From Candidatus Roizmanbacteria bacterium (GTDB taxonomy: Bacteria > Patescibacteriota > Microgenomatia > UBA1406 > GWC2-37-13): DNA of 33,944 nt. The stretch covers positions 1-33,944 of the forward strand of contig JAPLYQ010000142.1 of NCBI GenBank assembly GCA_026395475.1, written 5' to 3'. Both the position numbers and the translations under genes were made by a program. A model generated the notes under the pieces. The model saw nothing but the letters and a program-made list of their open reading frames with translations, did not search any database and was not told the DNA's origin. Below, one piece after another: positions 187 to 33,715 of the stretch (positions are counted from its first letter, which is position 1; each line of letters opens with the position of its first letter).

Positions 187-849
187 ATGAATCAAAATTC
201 TGATGAAAATCAACAACTTAATGTTGACAAAATCGAAAGGAACAAATTTATACTTGCCCTTAATGAAAGTGCGGTAGAAAGTCGCTTACAAAAGGTGTTA
301 GGAGTTAACCCAAAAATCTGGAATGACCTAAAAGATCAAGGAATACTTCCCCGAACTGGAACTTACGGTGAGTTTTTAACTAAAGTATTTAACCATTATC
401 GCCAACAAAATGAGGTTGCACTTGCTAAAGTTAAATCTAAAGCGGAAGAAATGGCCGCAAAGCGTACTTACAGAAGTTCAGATACAGAAAGTGGACTTCC
501 CAGAGTTGTAGAAGCAGAGAAAATATCTAAAATACGTTTGGATTCTGCTCGTGAACGACAAATACACTTACAAAATCTACAAACAAGAAACGAATTAATT
601 AGTAAGAGTGAGTTATACACCCTAATAGCCCCAATGGTAGGTAATATGGTCAACATACTTCGCAGTGCAGCGGATGACGACCCAAAAGTACAACCTACAA
701 TTGATAAATGTTTTGCAAGTTTACATGAAGTTGGTCTTCAACTACTTGCGCAGGTTAACCGTGACAGCGATAGTTACGTTGAAGAAATGATGAACAACCC
801 AGTTGACTTAGATGATATTATCAATAACGCCCAATTGGAGATAGAATGA
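187..849 (+). CDS. Terminase small subunit, Nu1-like
   Basis: 220 aa ORF immediately before a GpA-like large terminase with ATGA overlap (846-849); general Nu1-like layout. Mainly positional. Confidence 0.55.
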   Translation: MNQNSDENQQLNVDKIERNKFILALNESAVESRLQKVLGVNPKIWNDLKDQGILPRTGTYGEFLTKVFNHYRQQNEVALAKVKSKAEEMAAKRTYRSSDTESGLPRVVEAEKISKIRLDSARERQIHLQNLQTRNELISKSELYTLIAPMVGNMVNILRSAADDDPKVQPTIDKCFASLHEVGLQLLAQVNRDSDSYVEEMMNNPVDLDDIINNAQLEIE

Positions 850-2816
850 GGCGTACACTTGAAAATATAAGCGAAAGAAGACTCGTTGGAGAGTTATTTA
901 ACTTATTTCAACCTCCTATACGTATAAGTACAATGGACTGGGCAAGGAAATACCGTAACATAACCAGTAAGGAAACTAGTTTTGGTATAGGACAGTTCGA
1001 CCCAATGTTAACTCCCTACATGGAATATGTATATGAGTGCTTAGATAATCCCTATATTCCAACTATAATTTCACAAAAAAGTGCACGTATAGCTTGGACA
1101 GAAACGATAAACAACTACCGAGGCAAGAAAATACACACAAATCCAAGCCCAATGTTACTTGGATTTGCTACAGGAGCGGCTTGTAAGAACTTTGGGAAGA
1201 TAAAATGGGCTAATTTCCTTGCCAACATACCAGTTCTTAAAAATATAGTTAATGCAGGTGTAGCAAAGAACAAACAAAGCTTTTTCGAGTACGATTTTCC
1301 TAATGGAAGTTTACGTTTAGTTACATTGGGTAGTATTAGTTCACAGAAAAGTGATAATTTTCCTTACATTGAGATTGAAGAGCCTGATGATGCGCCAAAT
1401 GATGTAAGCGGGCAAGGAGATACTCTTGCTAACTTAAAGCAAAGACAAAAAACAGTTCCAACTACACTTAAAAAGTTAATTTTTGGAGGTACTCCAACAA
1501 ATAAGGACTTCAGTAGGGTTGAAGCTGCAATTAAAGCAAGTAATCAAATGGTCTTTAAAGCAGAATGTCATCACTGTAAAGAGTTAATTGCAATGGATGG
1601 AAACGCCTTCAATAACATACAGTACAGTGACTACCAAGACCGTAAAATACATGATATTTATGGTAAATGTGACCCTGAAACTGCAATGTTCATTTGCCCA
1701 AACTGTCAAGTTGAATGGACTTTTGAGCAAAAGAACTTAAATATAATTGCAGGCAAGAAGTTTGGATTTACAGATCACACTGGAACATTTAGTAAAGGAT
1801 GGCACGCTAAGAAACCTGAAATAACTGAAGCTTTTGGCTTCATATTTAGCGAGTTATTAAGTCCATTTCCTCCAAGTAACTTTGTAGAGTTAACAAAACT
1901 GAAAATACTTGCAGACTTAGACAAAGCACGTGGTAAAGAAGGTTTAATGAAGTCTTACTACAATAACAATCGTGGCGAACCTTACGCAAGTGGTTTCTCG
2001 GCGATGGAAGTAGAAGATATGGTTAAACTTCGTAGTAACTATCCGCAAGATGTAATTCCAATGGAAGGACTTGTACTTACAGCAGGGGTAGACGTACAAC
2101 ATAATAGGTTTGCTATTATTCTTCTTGCTTGGGGACGTAATGGTAATGTATACTTAATAACTTGGAAAGAGATTTTTGGTAATGTATTTAACCCGCAAGA
2201 CCCTGTGTGGGATGAATTAACTAACTTTTGCTTATCAAATATTGAGCATGTAACTGGAAAAACATTACCTATTAGTGCAGTAAGTATAGACTCAGGTGAT
2301 GGTAATACAGTTGAACTTGTTTACCGTTGGGTTAACCAAATGAACTTACGCCTTGAGTTTAATGGTAATGTACGCGCAACTAAAGGGGTAAAGGAACTTA
2401 AATTCAGTCATGATGACGTATATAAAGAACCTGCAATACCTGACCCAGTTTCATATAAACAAGTTAGGCGTTCTCTAGCTGAACGTATGGGTGTTACCTT
2501 GTATCAACTTGGAGCGCATAGAGCGCATGATGAAGTATTAAGAAGAATATCTCTTAATACAGTTGAAGAAGCTACTCATGATGTATTCTACTTCAACGAA
2601 CAAAGTTATGGGGGTTTCGAGGAACAAATACTTTCTTGCAGAAAGTTAATTGACACGACTGGAAATACCCAGAAAGAAGTTTACCAGCTTGTAAGTGGTA
2701 AACGTAAGGAGGCTATGGATGGCTGTAAGAACGCCTTTCATGCTGCATACGCTATTGGAGTTAGAGAGTTTTCTAATGATCGTTGGAAAGCTATAGAAGA
2801 TTATTTACTTAAGTAG
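846..2816 (+). CDS. Terminase large subunit, GpA (lambda) family
   Basis: 656 aa; SQKSARIAWTE (lambda-like deviant Walker A KSARVGYSK), YIEIEEPDDAP...GQGDTLANLKQR Walker B region, zinc ribbon CHHC...CPNC, GVDVQHNRF nuclease-type motif. Confidence 0.92.
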   Translation: MRRTLENISERRLVGELFNLFQPPIRISTMDWARKYRNITSKETSFGIGQFDPMLTPYMEYVYECLDNPYIPTIISQKSARIAWTETINNYRGKKIHTNPSPMLLGFATGAACKNFGKIKWANFLANIPVLKNIVNAGVAKNKQSFFEYDFPNGSLRLVTLGSISSQKSDNFPYIEIEEPDDAPNDVSGQGDTLANLKQRQKTVPTTLKKLIFGGTPTNKDFSRVEAAIKASNQMVFKAECHHCKELIAMDGNAFNNIQYSDYQDRKIHDIYGKCDPETAMFICPNCQVEWTFEQKNLNIIAGKKFGFTDHTGTFSKGWHAKKPEITEAFGFIFSELLSPFPPSNFVELTKLKILADLDKARGKEGLMKSYYNNNRGEPYASGFSAMEVEDMVKLRSNYPQDVIPMEGLVLTAGVDVQHNRFAIILLAWGRNGNVYLITWKEIFGNVFNPQDPVWDELTNFCLSNIEHVTGKTLPISAVSIDSGDGNTVELVYRWVNQMNLRLEFNGNVRATKGVKELKFSHDDVYKEPAIPDPVSYKQVRRSLAERMGVTLYQLGAHRAHDEVLRRISLNTVEEATHDVFYFNEQSYGGFEEQILSCRKLIDTTGNTQKEVYQLVSGKRKEAMDGCKNAFHAAYAIGVREFSNDRWKAIEDYLLK

Positions 2817-2824
2817 GAACTATT

Positions 2825-3253
2825 ATGTTACCGCAGGATTTTATAAAACAATTTGTTACCTGTTCACTTGTCCCCTATTGGAATGAGAATAAAGAACTTG
2901 CAATAGGGTATAATAATATTCTTAATGTAACAAGTGCAACTGTATGGCTAAAAGAACAAGCTGAAGCAGACTTAGATCAACGTATTAGACAAACTACAAT
3001 GTTATTACGTGCTAAATTATCTGTAGGACATATGTTAACTTTTAACCAAACTACTGCACTTGTTAGTTTATTTCTTGATATTGGTTATGAAAATATTCGC
3101 AAGACAAAGTTTATCGCCTATCTTGAAGCTAAGAACTGGGTAATGGTTACTTCGTCTTTTATGTTATTTAATAAAAACAGGCTTAATACAGTTAGCGTTA
3201 AGAAAACCGCAAGACGTAAAGCTGAACAAGTGTTATTTAATACTAAGGATTAA
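2825..3253 (+). CDS. GH24 (T4-type) lysozyme-like protein, predicted catalytically inactive
   Basis: 142 aa; SLVPYWNENKELAIGYNNI, QAEADLDQRI, LTFNQTTALVSLFLDIGYENIRKTKFIAYLEAKNW and RRKAEQVLF follow GH24 pattern (PY.D..G..TIG.GH; LT.NQ.DALVSF.FNIG...F..S.LL..LN; RR..E..LF). Catalytic E/D/T positions are V11/N20/A26. Confidence 0.6.
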   Translation: MLPQDFIKQFVTCSLVPYWNENKELAIGYNNILNVTSATVWLKEQAEADLDQRIRQTTMLLRAKLSVGHMLTFNQTTALVSLFLDIGYENIRKTKFIAYLEAKNWVMVTSSFMLFNKNRLNTVSVKKTARRKAEQVLFNTKD

Positions 3254-3255
3254 TT

Positions 3256-3546
3256 ATGTTATCTTTTGCTGAAGCTTCTGCACAATTAGCTACAATTAAT
3301 GCCGCAATAAGTGAATATTATGCTGGAACTCGTAGACGTTCTCTTATAGTTGGTGGGCACGAATTTAACCGGCAAGTAACTTATGCAGATATAAGTATCA
3401 CAGCCTTACTGCAAGAACGTACTCGTTTGCAAGCTATAGTTGATGCTTACTCTCCACCAGCACAAGTGCTATTTAAAGGGAATACAAGTTTTCCTTTACA
3501 AGTTACAAAGAAACCTACAAGCAACCGATTTAATGGAGGGTATTAA
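3256..3546 (+). CDS. Small head-completion protein, gpW-like by size and position
   Basis: 96 aa ORF directly before the portal; helical N-terminus and short basic/beta segment as in gpW-type proteins. Confidence 0.45.
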   Translation: MLSFAEASAQLATINAAISEYYAGTRRRSLIVGGHEFNRQVTYADISITALLQERTRLQAIVDAYSPPAQVLFKGNTSFPLQVTKKPTSNRFNGGY

Positions 3547-5060
3547 TGAACGGTAATATTATAGGAACTGATACTGATACAGGCATAGCGAATCAAGCTA
3601 CAAGCGTGTACGGAGCAAGTTGGAACGCCTTACATACCCCTGCGTATGATTCTGCAAGTATGGATTTTAAAAACAGTCAGCGTGAAGCTTATGTAGCTGA
3701 TGCAGACTTGCTTGCAATTAACGAATTATTACTAATTCAAAGCCGTAGTAGAAATGTAAGTAGAAATAATCCAATTGTAACTTCAGCAGAAGATAAATAT
3801 GTTGCAAAATTAGGCTCAATTAAAGTTAACTTTAAAAATCCTGATGGTACAGAACATAAATTAATGCAGGAACTTTGGGATGAATTTGCAGATGACCCGA
3901 ACTTAGATGGAAAAGGAAACTTATGTACTAATCAAGCTGTATGGAATCATGACCGCTTTCAAAGTGGAGAAGCTATCATACGAATGATTATTAAGCAAAA
4001 AGATAACTCTAATAGGATTCCTTTAAAGTTACAAAGCATAGAAAGTGAATATCTTGATGTTACCTACATGGGCTTCAGTGACCCTGAACTAAGCCAACTT
4101 CCTTTTGGAACTACCCGTTACGGTATTACTTTTGATGACTACAATAAACCAATTTTTTATAATTTCTGGTCAGACCGTCATTATGGTATTCGTAATGTAA
4201 ATACAACTCCTTGGCAACACGTCAAAGTTCCAGCAGAAGATGTTTGTCACATTTTTGAACGTAGAAGAAGTAATCAATGGCGTGGAACTCCAGTTGTATC
4301 GTCACTTTTGTCCACAATATACGAGATAACTGATTTAACTGATGCAACTGTAGCAAAACAACTTGCAGCAGCAGCTATAAGTTGGATAGTTGAGCAACCT
4401 GATGGTTCACCTCTGAATGCACCTGGAAGTATACGAACCGCAGGCAATACAATGCCAACTGACCTAGAGCGAAAGTTATTTTTTGTAGCTAATGGCGGAC
4501 AAGTACAATATACAAACCCTGGAGAGAAGTTTCAGTTAGTTCAAAGCTCAGATATTGGAAATAACTTAACAAGTTTACTAAAGCATCAGCTTCAAACCAT
4601 AGCTGCGGGGTACGGTATACCTTATTATATGTTAACTGGGGATACAGAAGGTTTGAATTTCTCTTCAATCCAAGGTATTCTTCTGGAGTTTCGTAATCGC
4701 TTAGAATATATCCATCATTATATTAACTTGCCTGATGGGCTTGATCGTATAGTTAAACGATTCACCGCTATCGCTAATATAATGTACCCAGAAACAGTAA
4801 CAGCAAAACCTAGTTACCAGTTTCCTAAAAATTACGGTGTTGATATGCTTAAGGATTATCAAGGTAATGTTCTTGGTATGCAAAGCGGGCAAACTACACT
4901 TAAACGTGTTATGGATGAAAACCATCTAACTGAAGAAGAAGTACTACAAGATCAAGCACTAAAAGAGAAGTTAGGGCTTGTAGGGTTAACTGACTTGCCT
5001 ACTAGTGCGAACATGACTCAAAATAACAACACACCTCAAAGAGATACTACAAGTAATTAA
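3546..5060 (+). CDS. Portal protein, lambda gpB family
   Basis: 504 aa; SRNVSRNNPIVTSAEDKYVAKLGS and QAVWNHDRFQSGEAIIRM...LKLQSIESEYLD are typical of lambda-type portals; correct position. Confidence 0.9.
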   Translation: MNGNIIGTDTDTGIANQATSVYGASWNALHTPAYDSASMDFKNSQREAYVADADLLAINELLLIQSRSRNVSRNNPIVTSAEDKYVAKLGSIKVNFKNPDGTEHKLMQELWDEFADDPNLDGKGNLCTNQAVWNHDRFQSGEAIIRMIIKQKDNSNRIPLKLQSIESEYLDVTYMGFSDPELSQLPFGTTRYGITFDDYNKPIFYNFWSDRHYGIRNVNTTPWQHVKVPAEDVCHIFERRRSNQWRGTPVVSSLLSTIYEITDLTDATVAKQLAAAAISWIVEQPDGSPLNAPGSIRTAGNTMPTDLERKLFFVANGGQVQYTNPGEKFQLVQSSDIGNNLTSLLKHQLQTIAAGYGIPYYMLTGDTEGLNFSSIQGILLEFRNRLEYIHHYINLPDGLDRIVKRFTAIANIMYPETVTAKPSYQFPKNYGVDMLKDYQGNVLGMQSGQTTLKRVMDENHLTEEEVLQDQALKEKLGLVGLTDLPTSANMTQNNNTPQRDTTSN

Positions 5061-23726: not shown

Positions 23727-24426
23727 ATTATATGGGGAATTAGCTGAACAGTTCGGGGATAAAGAACATACTATGCTTGCAAAAGATATGGTAGATGTTG
23801 TGCGTGGACTTATATCTAACTTTGGAGTTCAATTCAAACATGTATTTGCTAATGGAGTTTATCAAATAGTTCTAGGAGAGAAACACGAAGATTACGTAAC
23901 TGAAAAAGATAAACTTCTTTCTGAAAAGTTAATACAATTCCCAATTAAAGAACAATATGTACATATTTTTCCTGCGGTGCAAGGAGCTGGAGGTGGTGGA
24001 AACCAAATCCTCTTTGGTTTTGCCTTAGTAGCACTTGCGTTTGTAACTGCTGGAGCAAGTTTAGCTGTTGAAGGTGCTTTTGTTACAGCTACTTTAGCTG
24101 ATGCTGGTTCTATGGCAGTAGCTACATTTGAAGTTATGTCAAGTTCTACTGTACTATCTTCTTTAGCTATAGCAGGAGCCTTATCTATGGTTGGAGGAAT
24201 TATGTCCTTATTTGTTCCTGTTCCTAAGATGAATTATAGTGTGGCACAAAGACAAAGTTTTATCTTCGGGGGCCCCGTTAACAACACACACCAAGGTGGA
24301 GCAGTTCCAATTATCTATGGGGAGTGTATGACAGGAAGTACAGTTATCTCTGCAAGTATTCAAACAGCCAATGTAAATTGGAACATGTTAACTTATGAAC
24401 AGGTAATGTCTGGTGTCCAATATTAA
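23704..24426 (+). CDS. Tail assembly protein gpI-like
   Basis: ORF track start 23647 lies deep in gpK; ATG 23704 (METQCTVRLYGELAEQFGDKEHTM) gives the usual gpI start; C-terminal PIIYGECMTGSTVISASIQTA. Confidence 0.75.
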   Translation: METQCTVRLYGELAEQFGDKEHTMLAKDMVDVVRGLISNFGVQFKHVFANGVYQIVLGEKHEDYVTEKDKLLSEKLIQFPIKEQYVHIFPAVQGAGGGGNQILFGFALVALAFVTAGASLAVEGAFVTATLADAGSMAVATFEVMSSSTVLSSLAIAGALSMVGGIMSLFVPVPKMNYSVAQRQSFIFGGPVNNTHQGGAVPIIYGECMTGSTVISASIQTANVNWNMLTYEQVMSGVQY

Positions 24427-27400
24427 ACGATTTACAGCAACTAATAACCCAAACAAGTATTTCTCAGAGAACTGGGACGATACAATAACTGTACAAGAGT
24501 TACCAGAACATATTCAAGGAGCTGGGTGCTTTGGTAAAGGTACACTTGTACTTACAGCACATGGGTATAAAGCAATTGACCAGCTTACACTTATGGATAA
24601 AATTCTAAGTTATGATAGAGCGGGTGTAATTGAGTTTGCTAGGATTGCACAAATACATAAGCATACTAAAAAAGAGTTTAGTGATGATTTATACTTTATA
24701 AGTCGCAACACTGGGGTTATTTGGCCTAAAGGTATAACAGGGAATCATGCAGTCTATGATAAAGTTACAAATAACCATAAGCCAATTAGGGATTTTGCAG
24801 TTGGGGACGTTCTTGTCGATAATTTTAACAATGAAATTCCTATAACTGAAATAACTATTGTTCCTTATGAAGAATTAGCAGAAGATTTTTGTGTTTATAA
24901 CTTAACAGTTGGTTTAGCACATACCTATATTTGTGGCAATCCTAAAGCATGGATACGGGTACACAATGGAGGCCCAGGTAAAAGTGGAGTTGTTCCGCAA
25001 GGAGTTGAAGCTCCTAACACACTTCAAAGTAGTTCTGTAGCTTACGTGCTTGACCTTATATCGCATGGCCCTATAGTTGGTATTGCGGGAGGTACAGATA
25101 TACAAAAAGGCATTTATTTCAATAATACTCCTCTTAAAAGTCCTCAGGGACAATCTAATTTCACAGGCTACTTCCTCGAAAGCGGGGTATATACACCAGT
25201 TACACCTCATATTGCAGCAACTACAGGGACTCCAGACCAACCAGTTTTATCTGGCTTTTCAGATGTTGAAACTACAGTTTATGCAGAAAATCGTGTAATT
25301 AGTTACAGTTCTCCAGTTATAGTTACTATTCCAGATACAGGTAAACAAGCTGTCAGAATTACACTTAATTTTGCTAATGGTCTTTGGAGTCAGGACTTTA
25401 AAACAGGGGACATTAATGGAGCTTCTGTTAATTTTACTATATACACAAAATCTGCTACAAGTTCTATATGGACTCCCGCAGCTACAGGGCCATTAAAGGG
25501 TAAAACAACTTCTGCCTATATGGTGGATTACCTTGTATCGGCTCCTAATGAATGTTTAGCACAACCTAACTTAGGATGGGCTATTAAAATAGTACGTCAC
25601 GACTTAGACGATGAAATTGGTTCTCACACAAGATCAACTACAGCTTTTTATCTATTTAGCGTAGTTGAAATAGCTTATTTAACTGAAACTTATCCTAATA
25701 TGGCTGTAGTAGGGCTACAAGTACCGGCTATTGCTGTTAATAATAGTATACCTACCCGAGGTTATCTTGTTACAGGTTTAATAGTACAAGTTCCATCTAA
25801 CTATGATACAGTTCAGCGCTTATACAATGGAAGCAGAAGTATTGCTAGTTTTGGTATTGATGGGAGTACACATACTTATGATGGCGGTATTAATACTGGC
25901 ACTACGCAAGGTTACTGGGACAAGAGTTTTAAGTGGGCGTGGACAGATAACCCTGCATGGATATTATACAATCTTGTAACTAACAATGAGTATGGTCTTG
26001 GAGATTACCTAGGGGTAACTGTAGATGTGGATGTTTGGTCTTTCTATGAAGCTTCTTTGTTTAATGATTGTACTTCTTGGAGCCCAGTTACACAACAATA
26101 TAGTAAGAAATTAATAGCTAATGGAAGTTCAAGTTCTTTAGCTGTCACTAGTATAGGTGTATACGGAACATCTACTGCTCCAGTAACAACGGCTTATGTT
26201 GTAGTACCAGGACACTCTATTAACGTAGGAGATAATATTACTACGTCTGGGGTTACAGGTACATACGCTTCGTTACTAAATGGAACTTTTGGTGTAGCTA
26301 GTGTTATAGATAGAAACAATATAACTATTAATATTCCAAGCACAACAGTTACAACAACAGTAACAAACAGCGGAATTACCTTAATAGATAACTCAACGGC
26401 TGGTTTTGAGCATAGATTTATCTTCAACATGCCAATAACTGCACAACAAGATGCGTGGCAGTTACTTCAAGCTATTGCTGGTAGTATGTGGGGTATTTTA
26501 ACAACTGTAAATGGCAAGATAACCCTATTACAAGATAGACCTAAAACAGTTTCTCGTATATTTAATACTAGCAATGTGATAAATGGATTATTCACCTACT
26601 CGGGTACGGAAATAACTACGCGTACAACTGCAATTAATGTAACTTTTAATGATAAGAATAACTTATATCAACCAAAAACTATAAGTGAATGGGACAATAC
26701 TAATGTTGCTTTATACGGGTATATTCCTAACGATATAGTTGCAGTTGGATGTGTAGATGAAAGTCAAGCACGTAGACAAGCCAAATTTGCACTTAATACT
26801 GCCCTTTACCAACCTGAAATATGTGTATTTGGTCTTGGACTTAATATTATTGACCTAAGTATTGGTGATCGTATAGGTACGCAAGATAACTTTAAAGTAC
26901 GTCCTGCCTCACAATTCATAAGTGGTCGTGTTGTAAGTGCTTCAGGCATAGGTACAAATACAGTTACTTTCTCTTTAGATCGGACAATTACCTTACTTAA
27001 AGGAACTTATGCATTTGGTGTAGCTGCTCCTGATGGTTACGGTGTATTACAACCCGATGGAAGCACTGCTATAGAATCCTACATCTTTAATGGAACTATA
27101 ACAACGCCTACTTCCTCAACTGTAAGTAGTGATACCTCTGTTGTAATTGTACATTTTGATTCTCCATTACCTACATGTTCAACTAACTATGTTAACATTG
27201 AATTTTATTCTTACTGTGAGGCAAGCGGTGACCATATAGACTGGTGGACAGTACAATCTATAAGTGAATCAGCGAAAGGACAATATAACTTAACTTGTAT
27301 TAGCTATAACCCAGATAAATGGGGGCAGATAGAAAATGATTTGCATTTTACCCCTATACTTCCTCCAAGCGGGCTTTTACAAAACCAATTACCTAAACCA

Positions 27401-29845
27401 GGAACTATAAGTTTCTTACCAGTATTTTCAAATAATACAACTTCAGTTGCTAACTCATTATACGTATCTTGGGAATGGGACGGTACAGCTATAAAAGATC
27501 AAGTTACTTTTAACTTAAGCTGGAAAGTGGATTATGAAAACTGGGTAACGATTAAAAATATTGCGTTACCAACTTACCAGATTAAAAATGCAATTCCAGG
27601 TATCTACACAGTTGTTGTAACTGCGGTAAATATTGCAGGTATTAATTCCCCACAAGCACAGAACAGTTACAATTACTATACAACCTCAACAAATCTTAAC
27701 CCAATTACGGTTGATGCTGGAAGTTTAACTGCTACTAATGCAAATGTAAATGGAACTTCTATAACTAAACCTGCTACTATTATAGGAACAGCAATAACTG
27801 TGCAGTCTATCGTGTCAGGTTCGCTTTATGTTATTGATAGTATTGGTTCAACGGGAAATACAACTGACTTTACCGTATTAGGTGCAAGTGCAAATACAAT
27901 AGGAACTCAATTTACTGCAACAAGCACTTATTCAGGAACTACAAATGGAACTATACGTCCTGTCACAGCTAATACCTCTACATGGGGAGATTCCTTTTGT
28001 TCTGGAACTGTAGGTTATAACTCACCTATCGCAGTGCAGTTTATTCCGAACGCGGCTACTGGAGAGTTTATTGTAGGTTTTGATACTCACACTAATGCTA
28101 GAACTAAAGCTAATTTTCTACTTGGCCTTTATTGCAATGCAGGCGTGCTTTACACAATTGAAAATGGTACCGTACACCCAAGTTCAGGAAATTATGGAAC
28201 CTATACAACTTTAGATGTATTAGAAGTTGTGTATAACGGTACAAGTATTGACTTTAGAAAAAATGGAGTTTCCTTCAGGAATCTTTCTTACACATTAACA
28301 GGAGTAAATGTACTTTACTTTAAGTCTATTTATTTAACACCAGGAATAGGTTTATCTAACCTAATACTGGGTACTTATGTAACTTCTTCTGAGTCTTCAA
28401 TACTTCCACCAACTAACTTAAGAGTTACTGGAACAACCGGAACAACTTTTGCCGAAAAAGACTTACATATTTCTTGGACAGAGAACCCTGCCAATTCTAC
28501 AGCTACAATAAAATCGTTTAATACTGGTGCAGGTTTAGGTTTACCAAATACAAACCAATTGCCATTAACAAGCACTACAGGACTTGTTTCTGGAGAAACT
28601 GTACAAGGGAATGGAGTACCTTTAAACACTACAATACTAAGTATTGCGAGTGGCGTAGTTACTCTTAGTAATAATTTAACTGTACAAGCTAGCGGAGATT
28701 ACTCGTTCAGTGTTCCAGTTAGTTCCTTATATGCTTATGTATTACGTATAATGGACTCTGGTAATATTAATATCTTAAAAGAGTTTGTAGTTTTCCCTGA
28801 TACAACTAATGTCGGAGGCACATTTGTTTACACTTATGGACAAAATACAGTAGACTATACTACACCAAGTAGGAATGTAAATGTACGTGTGTATGCTCAA
28901 GATACTTTAGGAAATATAAGTTCAACATATATCTATGCTACTTTTTCAAATGCTCAAGCTGGAGGAGTTACTTCTTTTGAGATATTAACTTTATTAGACG
29001 GGGTGTCTATAAACATAACTCCTAACTCAACAGATAATGATGTAGCAGGGTTTAAAGTTTATAGAAACTTAACTTCTTCTTTCACAAAAGATAGTTCTAC
29101 AGAAATATATGATGGTACAAGTCCTAATGTTACTTTAACAACTCCAGATAATAGCAATACTTATTATTATTCAGTTGCAGAATATGACTCTTTTGATAAA
29201 ACTGGTTTAGCTTTTGCTTCTGAGCAAAGTGCAATTAGTATTGGTACAACTGCAATCCAGTGGGGCTTAAAAGATATTGTATTTACACAAAATACAAGTA
29301 CAAATGTTATTAGTTGGACATCTGGGACTATATATAAAAATGGAGATGCTTACAGTATAAGTTCTGGTACTGCTACTTGGACAACAGGCATTTTATACAT
29401 CTACTACACTGGAAGCGGAAGTACATTAAGTACCACAACTGCTACGGCTACGGCTGTGGGAATAGGAAATTACCCTCTTGCAACTTATGATAGTACAAAC
29501 CATTTACGCGGGGGAGATGGAAGTGCATTTATATCTGGTAGCCAGATACTTGCTGCTACAGTAGGTACAAGTCAATTAATTGCGGGGGCTGTAACTGCTG
29601 ATAAGATACTTGCAGGTGAAGTAACAGCAGATAAACTATACTCGGACGTATTACAATCTACAAGCTATAATGCAACAGCTAAAACAGGTTGGAAAGCTGA
29701 TAGAAGTGGAAATATAATTAGTTATGGGGCTTTAACTATTGCAAGTTCAGGTACAGGTAATGCACGTATGGAAAATAATGGGGACAGTATCAAGATATAT
29801 GATAGTGCTGGAACTATACGTATTAAAATAGGTAATTTAGCATGA
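24413..29845 (+). CDS. Tip attachment/central fiber protein gpJ-like with N-terminal Hint domain, FN3-like and inserted beta modules
   Basis: 1810 aa; VLDLISHGPIVGIAGG, SPVIVTIPDTGKQAVRITLNF, VVGLQVPAIAVNNSIPTRGYLVTGLIVQVPSNYD, WAWTDNPAWILYNLVTNNEYGLGDYLG match the lambda gpJ core; GTG start. Confidence 0.9.
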   Translation: MSNIKRFTATNNPNKYFSENWDDTITVQELPEHIQGAGCFGKGTLVLTAHGYKAIDQLTLMDKILSYDRAGVIEFARIAQIHKHTKKEFSDDLYFISRNTGVIWPKGITGNHAVYDKVTNNHKPIRDFAVGDVLVDNFNNEIPITEITIVPYEELAEDFCVYNLTVGLAHTYICGNPKAWIRVHNGGPGKSGVVPQGVEAPNTLQSSSVAYVLDLISHGPIVGIAGGTDIQKGIYFNNTPLKSPQGQSNFTGYFLESGVYTPVTPHIAATTGTPDQPVLSGFSDVETTVYAENRVISYSSPVIVTIPDTGKQAVRITLNFANGLWSQDFKTGDINGASVNFTIYTKSATSSIWTPAATGPLKGKTTSAYMVDYLVSAPNECLAQPNLGWAIKIVRHDLDDEIGSHTRSTTAFYLFSVVEIAYLTETYPNMAVVGLQVPAIAVNNSIPTRGYLVTGLIVQVPSNYDTVQRLYNGSRSIASFGIDGSTHTYDGGINTGTTQGYWDKSFKWAWTDNPAWILYNLVTNNEYGLGDYLGVTVDVDVWSFYEASLFNDCTSWSPVTQQYSKKLIANGSSSSLAVTSIGVYGTSTAPVTTAYVVVPGHSINVGDNITTSGVTGTYASLLNGTFGVASVIDRNNITINIPSTTVTTTVTNSGITLIDNSTAGFEHRFIFNMPITAQQDAWQLLQAIAGSMWGILTTVNGKITLLQDRPKTVSRIFNTSNVINGLFTYSGTEITTRTTAINVTFNDKNNLYQPKTISEWDNTNVALYGYIPNDIVAVGCVDESQARRQAKFALNTALYQPEICVFGLGLNIIDLSIGDRIGTQDNFKVRPASQFISGRVVSASGIGTNTVTFSLDRTITLLKGTYAFGVAAPDGYGVLQPDGSTAIESYIFNGTITTPTSSTVSSDTSVVIVHFDSPLPTCSTNYVNIEFYSYCEASGDHIDWWTVQSISESAKGQYNLTCISYNPDKWGQIENDLHFTPILPPSGLLQNQLPKPGTISFLPVFSNNTTSVANSLYVSWEWDGTAIKDQVTFNLSWKVDYENWVTIKNIALPTYQIKNAIPGIYTVVVTAVNIAGINSPQAQNSYNYYTTSTNLNPITVDAGSLTATNANVNGTSITKPATIIGTAITVQSIVSGSLYVIDSIGSTGNTTDFTVLGASANTIGTQFTATSTYSGTTNGTIRPVTANTSTWGDSFCSGTVGYNSPIAVQFIPNAATGEFIVGFDTHTNARTKANFLLGLYCNAGVLYTIENGTVHPSSGNYGTYTTLDVLEVVYNGTSIDFRKNGVSFRNLSYTLTGVNVLYFKSIYLTPGIGLSNLILGTYVTSSESSILPPTNLRVTGTTGTTFAEKDLHISWTENPANSTATIKSFNTGAGLGLPNTNQLPLTSTTGLVSGETVQGNGVPLNTTILSIASGVVTLSNNLTVQASGDYSFSVPVSSLYAYVLRIMDSGNINILKEFVVFPDTTNVGGTFVYTYGQNTVDYTTPSRNVNVRVYAQDTLGNISSTYIYATFSNAQAGGVTSFEILTLLDGVSINITPNSTDNDVAGFKVYRNLTSSFTKDSSTEIYDGTSPNVTLTTPDNSNTYYYSVAEYDSFDKTGLAFASEQSAISIGTTAIQWGLKDIVFTQNTSTNVISWTSGTIYKNGDAYSISSGTATWTTGILYIYYTGSGSTLSTTTATATAVGIGNYPLATYDSTNHLRGGDGSAFISGSQILAATVGTSQLIAGAVTADKILAGEVTADKLYSDVLQSTSYNATAKTGWKADRSGNIISYGALTIASSGTGNARMENNGDSIKIYDSAGTIRIKIGNLA
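24527..24967 (+). other. Hint (intein/BIL-like) domain within gpJ, C39-N185
   Basis: CFGKGTLVLTAHGYKAIDQL (block A), ITGNHAVYD (block B, TxxH), VYNLTVGLAHTYICGNPKAWIRVHN|GG (blocks F/G). No endonuclease insert (147 aa). Confidence 0.82.
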
Positions 29846-32450: not shown

Positions 32451-32711
32451 ATGTCTGAAAACACAGATTCAACTTCAACTTTATTTCTTGCTGGGGCTAG
32501 ACCTGCTGCAATGTGGGTAGGAGTTATTAGTTTACTGTACAGTGGAATTGGGATAAGTTTACTTTCATGGATTGCTTTGATCTTTGGACTTCCAACTGTC
32601 CCTGCATTTTCCGATGCAACTGCGGAGAATATTCTTTACGGGTTGCTTGGTCTTGGAGGTATGCGTACAGTTGAAAAACTTAAATCTGTACAAACTAATA
32701 AAATAGGCTAG
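32451..32711 (+). CDS. Holin, 3TM type
   Basis: 86 aa; ARPAAMWVGVISLLYSGIG...ENILYGLLGLGGMRTVEKLKSV typical of 3TM phage holins; adjacent to endolysin. Confidence 0.75.
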   Translation: MSENTDSTSTLFLAGARPAAMWVGVISLLYSGIGISLLSWIALIFGLPTVPAFSDATAENILYGLLGLGGMRTVEKLKSVQTNKIG

Positions 32712-32733: not shown

Positions 32734-33306
32734 ATGCTAATTACGTCTGAACAACTGCATGAAATGATACCACATTCAACAGATAAGTTGATTTTACGTT
32801 ATCTTACACCTTTAAATAACGCAATGGAACAGTTCCAAATAAATACACCATTACGTATTGCAGCTTTTATAGCTCAAGTTGCACATGAAAGTTGTAGTTT
32901 AGTGTATTCTGAGGAGATTGCAAGTGGAAGTGCTTATGAAAAACGTGGTGACTTAGGTAATTTATTGCCAGAAGCACTTGCAGTTGCTCATGCTAACCAT
33001 AGTACAACTGGAAGATTCTACAAAGGGCGCAGTTTATTGCAAATTACAGGTTATAGTAACTACTTAGCGTGTAGTAAAGGTATTGATGTTGACTGTGTAA
33101 CTAATCCTAGAATACTTTCTGAGCCTGAATATGCTGCAAAGAGTGCTGCATGGTTTTGGAACATTCATAACTTAAATATCCTTGCGGATGTTGAGATGTT
33201 CGACAAGATAACACATGTAATTAATGGAGGTTACAATGGAAAAGCTGAACGAGATACAAATTATCGTCGTTGTAAGGAAGTCTTAGGTTGTAATGCGAAG
33301 AAATAA
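32734..33306 (+). CDS. Endolysin, GH19 (chitinase class I-like) family
   Basis: 190 aa; RIAAFIAQVAHESCSLVYSEE, RFYKGRSLLQITGYSNY, AAWFWNIHNLN, ITHVINGGYNGKAER. Confidence 0.85.
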   Translation: MLITSEQLHEMIPHSTDKLILRYLTPLNNAMEQFQINTPLRIAAFIAQVAHESCSLVYSEEIASGSAYEKRGDLGNLLPEALAVAHANHSTTGRFYKGRSLLQITGYSNYLACSKGIDVDCVTNPRILSEPEYAAKSAAWFWNIHNLNILADVEMFDKITHVINGGYNGKAERDTNYRRCKEVLGCNAKK

Positions 33307-33715
33307 ACTTACCAAACCAATAGGTAAGTACAACATACTATATGATTTGTGTGAAACTGTACTTACTGAGTTTGAGGCAACAGGCAAGAAATTCCCCGTT
33401 ACTAAGTATACTCCAGCTAAAATATCGGCTGGAGTTGTTTACTTTATCAGATTTACATTTACTGATGGAACAATATTATACAAACTTGGCTACACTTCGC
33501 GTACAGTATACATAAGAATGGAAACCTTAGGTATTCCATATGGAACTAAGACACGTGTACTTGCTGCATTACCTTTTAGTTCTGTACAAACTGCGTATAA
33601 AGCTGAACAGTTACTTCATGAGAAGTTTATTAAGTACAAGTACAGCGGGAAAGGTAGACTTGCTAATGGTAACAGTGAACTTTATATTTGTGACTTGTTA
33701 CAGTTACAAGCGTAG
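33293..33715 (+). CDS. Small GIY-YIG-like (T5orf172/MUG113-type) protein
   Basis: 140 aa; GVVYFIRFTFTDGTILYKLGYTSRTVYIRMETL, KAEQLLHEKFIKYKYSGKGRLANGNSELY. Confidence 0.6.
   Translation: MRRNKLTKPIGKYNILYDLCETVLTEFEATGKKFPVTKYTPAKISAGVVYFIRFTFTDGTILYKLGYTSRTVYIRMETLGIPYGTKTRVLAALPFSSVQTAYKAEQLLHEKFIKYKYSGKGRLANGNSELYICDLLQLQA

Follow-up and report, generated by a model that had tools for sequence, protein, structure and literature searches.

Why would a phage keep, between the genes for its large terminase and its portal protein, a lysozyme-like gene in which the catalytic residues have been replaced? The gene lies on a contig of 33,944 nucleotides, the whole of which was analysed and is called the window here. 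An earlier note had described it as an intact ORF packed tightly between TerL and a gpW-size ORF, and both the coordinates and the Shine-Dalgarno sequence agree with this: the 142-codon frame is unbroken, opens with ATG, has a good AGGA Shine-Dalgarno in AAGTAGGAACTATTATG, and is separated by 8 bases from the TerL stop and by 2 bases from the gpW-like ORF. The genes concerned are:

846 to 2816, forward strand: large terminase (TerL) of the gpA type (GpA_ATPase 2e-40, GpA_nuclease 1.3e-46)
2825 to 3253, forward strand: predicted GH24-fold pseudoenzyme of 142 aa (PF00959, AlphaFold, Foldseek, V11/N20/A26)
3256 to 3546, forward strand: gpW-like head-tail adaptor (phrog_75 at only 1.3e-3; a syntenic homologue lies immediately 5' of the portal gene in relatives)
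3546 to 5060, forward strand: portal protein of the lambda family (Phage_portal_2 3.9e-55)

The predicted fold of the window protein is that of GH24 lysozymes. The PF00959 Phage_lysozyme profile is covered completely (positions 1-125 of 125) by residues 8-134, at 3.9e-11 and with a score of 43.8 bits where the cut-off is 22.3 bits; PF00959 also matches 7/7 members of the family alignment, and in the PDB a profile built from these seven hits GH24 lysozymes at 1e-19. The lysozyme fold proposed from the sequence was checked with AlphaFold and Foldseek and stands, since the best PDB matches to the model (pLDDT 85, pTM 0.82) are all GH24 structures, with endolysins at E 7e-8 and the SpmX muramidase domain at TM 0.85. 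The later GH24 signatures that had been noted are there as well, A46, S81, R130, R131, E134, L137 and F138 all being kept. The likeness to T4 lysozyme holds for the GH24 fold but not for T4 lysozyme as the nearest relative, as GH24 proteins of the P22/AbLys/SpmX type are closer by profile. Compared with GH24 phage endolysins (P22 lysozyme, AbLys1, PHAb10/11, 6et6; PF00959), the fold is the same over its full length and R130, E134, L137 and F138 are shared, but the catalytic Glu, Asp/Cys and Thr and the cleft Asn are replaced, and the gene lies outside the lysis cassette. Two narrower identities were rejected. An SpmX-type localization factor does not fit a protein of 142 aa that is a GH24 domain only, with neither the proline-rich region nor the two C-terminal transmembrane segments and with no match to NF051871. 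The gene transfer agent endolysin BgtA (NF058676) is the best NCBIfam profile for the window protein and for three relatives (L064, L072, L135), all of which fall far below its 315-bit cut-off. PADLOC gave no match for the 142-aa protein.

Used directly as a query of IMG/VR, the window protein retrieved no relatives; these came through TerL, which gave 17 and then 43 loci, and through a later portal-based scan that added L135. A homologue sits at the junction on nine IMG/VR contigs (L003/L021, L004/L022, L005/L065, L006, L008/L072, L016, L064, L066, L009/L074). L064 and L066 appear to come from one virus, so these represent eight distinct viruses; with the window there are nine distinct carriers, eight of them with an intact frame, all known from metagenomic contigs of which several are short. 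In every carrier the gene is found between TerL and gpW/portal, and its start codon overlaps the TerL stop or lies close to it. The ninth frame, in L009/L074, is broken, and sequencing errors are likely there because the portal and protease frames of that contig are broken too. Another GH24 gene, situated near a P2-type head completion gene in LR797314 (L002), has the Glu and was set aside as an ordinary lysozyme. No phage lysozyme pseudoenzyme was found in the literature searched, which left most subscription papers outside.

The active site was compared between the eight alignable junction copies, the window protein included, and 31 ordinary GH24 proteins taken from phage records and IMG/VR. 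Its three catalytic positions are encoded at:

2855 to 2857, forward strand: V11 codon, at the position of the catalytic Glu (T4 E11), a column with E in 31/31 ordinary GH24 proteins
2882 to 2884, forward strand: N20 codon, at the position of the catalytic Asp/Cys (D20), placed by the alignment
2900 to 2902, forward strand: A26 codon, at the position of the catalytic Thr (T26), a column with T in 31/31 ordinary GH24 proteins

The assignment of V11, N20 and A26 to the catalytic Glu, Asp and Thr positions was therefore right. In the eight junction proteins the Glu column reads V/I/L/N/N/A/T/Y (Glu in 0/8) and the Thr column A/A/A/F/Y/A/A/V (Thr in 0/8). The cleft Asn of YNxG, which contacts the substrate, is present in 31/31 ordinary proteins and 0/8 junction proteins, being D in the window protein, while R130 and E134 are kept in 8/8. 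The remaining carrier, L009/L074, read by eye, has Arg at the Glu position, so that a search for close junction homologues with an intact catalytic Glu ended at 0 of 9 carriers. As to whether V, N and A are themselves conserved, the loss of Glu and Thr is general and Asn takes the Asp/Cys position in 7/8, but the residue at position 11 varies.

The general-acid Glu is invariant in the lysozyme superfamily, whose most conserved element is the beta-hairpin (T4 17-32) (PMC2976769). From these columns we infer that the window protein lacks muramidase activity. A muramidase working through other residues is conceivable in view of L064, which has a Glu one residue past the usual position; against this, no acidic residue of the cleft is conserved among carriers, the general acid of the superfamily is always this Glu (PMC2976769), and one relative, L135, has no cleft at all. 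We consider continued catalysis very improbable.

Nor does lysis appear to depend on this protein. The window was said to have an endolysin of its own, and it does, with a holin gene 5' of it:

32451 to 32711, forward strand: holin of the phage's lysis cassette (phrog_3427 1.6e-13)
32734 to 33306, forward strand: GH19 endolysin (PF00182 1.4e-9; phrog_181 4.3e-50)

The record of L064 has a GH108 endolysin with a GTA-type holin, and no carrier record searched has a second GH24. With unrelated endolysins in these two carriers, lysis is probably independent of the pseudo-lysozyme; the evidence comes from the window and L064, the other carrier contigs being too short to tell. The 3' end of the GH19 gene is overlapped by a T5orf172/GIY-YIG-like ORF (33293-33715).

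Is the gene simply on its way out? A single branch, with support of 100/99 (95/91 with L135 included), divides the junction proteins from 22 ordinary GH24 proteins. In the TerL tree an 11-member clade (99/97) unites the nine carriers with L135, which retains the helical lobe only, and L077, in which the gene is cleanly absent and TerL-gpW-portal are kept. Two changes suffice to explain this distribution on the TerL tree, counted without a root, and the simplest reading is one gain and one loss. Judged by these trees, the junction proteins have a single origin and are inherited vertically. Purifying selection was tested in three close pairs, in two of which dS is near saturation so that the values are rough, and dN/dS came to 0.29 (0.18-0.49), 0.18 (0.08-0.31) and 0.16 (0.00-0.36), with bootstrap intervals in brackets; the range of 0.16-0.29 indicates that the gene is under such selection. 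TerL gives 0.03-0.07, and the pseudo-lysozyme gene evolves several times faster. Between ordinary GH24 proteins and the junction proteins, mean identity drops most, from 0.59 to 0.42, over residues 11-42, the region of the cleft, and only from 0.51 to 0.46 over the C-terminal helix. R130, E134 and an LF close to the C-terminal end are conserved in the family; since residues conserved family-wide belong mostly to the GH24 core, no new binding surface could be singled out.

Fast evolution, the broken frame of L009/L074, the deletion in L135 and the loss in L077 would all suit a former lysozyme gene that is being lost. Decay is nevertheless improbable, given that eight frames are intact and full-length among phages whose TerL identity goes as low as about 58%, that dN/dS is far below 1, that core residues are retained, and that the breaks in L009/L074 are likely to be sequence errors. 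The view that repurposing is likelier than decay is upheld by the fold, the absence of the Glu in nine carriers, the single clade, vertical inheritance and dN/dS below 1.

L135 also argues against decay and bears on which part of the protein matters. Sister to the window group in the TerL tree (94/89), it has at its junction a 109-aa ORF (L135:4865-5194) with its own ribosome-binding site that matches PF00959 at positions 61-125 only, the catalytic beta-lobe having been deleted. The gap from TerL to this ORF is only ~65 bases, too short for the missing lobe to be hidden upstream. AlphaFold, run with the family alignment, predicts for the remnant a compact helical fold (pLDDT 88.5, pTM 0.83) whose nearest structures are still GH24 enzymes, through their helical lobes. 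The part retained corresponds in the window to:

3017 to 3241, forward strand: C-terminal helical lobe, residues 65-139, the part retained alone in L135

If the part kept is the useful part, the cleft is not needed for function; the lobe-deleted form is known from this one contig.

What the gene does can be approached through what else occupies its place. In relatives without it the gpW-like ORF often follows TerL directly, and several have HNH endonucleases, a PAPS-reductase/SspD-like ORF, zinc-ribbon ORFs or small holin-like membrane ORFs there. HNH ORFs stand next to TerL in L069 (phrog_59 2.5e-31), L011 and L076, along with small membrane ORFs and zinc-ribbon ORFs that have PINLWSLP as their C-terminal end; PAPS-reductase-like ORFs occur at L071:9349-10179, which matches PADLOC SspD at 3.2e-7, and at L145:4216-5055. 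In L145, a more distant relative, the junction also holds a membrane ORF of 56 aa that resembles a holin, and a lysozyme of the T4 type in which E/D/T are intact (L145:5052-5682, between TerL and the gpW-like ORF), and membrane ORFs similar to those of L145 recur there in the sister group. In Arthrobacter cluster AT phages an endolysin is located between terminase and protease (PMC5513430). Going by this gene content, the TerL-gpW junction is an accessory, sometimes a lysis, locus, which makes descent of the pseudo-lysozyme from a lysis gene plausible.

The same survey makes it harder to argue from the gene's position that it serves packaging. The earlier note favoured a structural or packaging role, in which the pseudo-lysozyme would bind TerL, gpW or the portal and serve packaging, head completion or head-tail joining. 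Its constant place between TerL and gpW/portal, with a start that overlaps or nearly touches the TerL stop, and its vertical co-inheritance with TerL are what such a role would lead one to expect. That the junction of relatives holds accessory genes or nothing, that L077 lost the gene and retains TerL-gpW-portal, and that its rate of evolution is several times that of TerL speak against it. Position by itself is no proof of packaging, and we regard a virion or packaging component as possible but doubtful. The fuller version, a lysozyme turned into a dedicated non-enzymatic packaging or head-completion part and shrunk to its helical lobe in one member, is unlikely; if true, it would make these proteins a new family of morphogenesis proteins with a lysozyme fold.

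The L145 arrangement, at exactly the same junction, and the similar membrane ORFs of the sister group lend some weight to a different role, in which a non-cutting relic of a lysis cassette would bind holin, endolysin or peptidoglycan and tune the timing of lysis. The L145 lysozyme, however, belongs to a different GH24 subfamily with a very long branch in the tree and may be an independent insertion, and the holin assignments of the small junction ORFs are weak (phrog_297 0.02-0.1). The residue that contacts the substrate was lost together with the catalytic ones, and a regulator would have no constant partner among carriers whose lysis enzymes differ in family (GH19, GH108). Such a regulator, too, we regard as possible but doubtful.

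We favour instead a retained GH24 pseudoenzyme, a non-enzymatic protein-binding module exapted from a lysis gene, and put the probability of this reading at roughly two in three. In the forebear of a group of lambda-like phages, an ordinary phage lysozyme gene would have entered the TerL-gpW junction, or stayed at it, and there have lost the catalytic Glu and Thr and the substrate-contacting Asn. The dead form would then have passed down vertically while unrelated endolysins carried out lysis (GH19 in the window, GH108 in its relative). Late in infection it would most likely serve as a non-enzymatic binder of protein, its conserved helical lobe maintaining the fold and offering a useful surface as the old glycan cleft drifts, to the point of deletion in one phage. 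Protein binding through the helical lobe is probably the mode of action, and the junction suggests an origin from a lysis cassette. An accessory target would agree with the fast evolution, with the missing gene in L077 and with a junction that is itself accessory, and co-inheritance with TerL fits virion assembly; we slightly prefer an accessory role, in which a host factor or lysis control would be the target.

The closest parallel is SpmX of Caulobacter and relatives (6h9d), in which a GH24 domain has been retained as a protein-binding module: in Caulobacter this domain has PopZ and DivJ as its binding partners and showed no detectable activity (PMC5347347). SpmX differs in keeping the Glu (E19), in having proline-rich and transmembrane parts, and in being a host polarity protein rather than the product of a phage gene.

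Lysozyme is among the most studied of enzyme folds, and active copies abound in phages. Alpha-lactalbumin and the lysozyme-like sperm proteins reuse a lysozyme fold without lysozyme activity, although these are GH22 proteins of animals with an unrelated origin. A clade in which the enzyme would have been silenced once and then kept, with one descendant that has shed the active-site lobe, offers a natural experiment on the passage from enzyme fold to binding protein. A GH24 annotation in a phage should be taken to mean an endolysin only once the Glu has been checked.

The host of the phage is a separate matter. The window comes from a MAG of 1.18 Mb, where it is number 154 of the 159 contigs, and neither the TerL nor the pseudo-lysozyme gene was found in 84 other genomes of the MAG's order; TerL scans of genome contigs gave no match and hence no named host or prophage. 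The GC content of the window (0.36-0.38) is similar to that of three host pieces (0.34-0.38), so a foreign phage could have ended up in the MAG when contigs were binned by composition, and the window is possibly a phage contig mis-binned in this small-genome MAG. Elsewhere in the window, the gene for a gpJ-like tail tip protein (24413-29845) encodes a HINT-type domain at residues 45-185 (PT-HINT 2.3e-6), which starts after GCFGKGT, ends in VHNGG and probably represents a self-processing insertion, either intein-like or of the BIL type.
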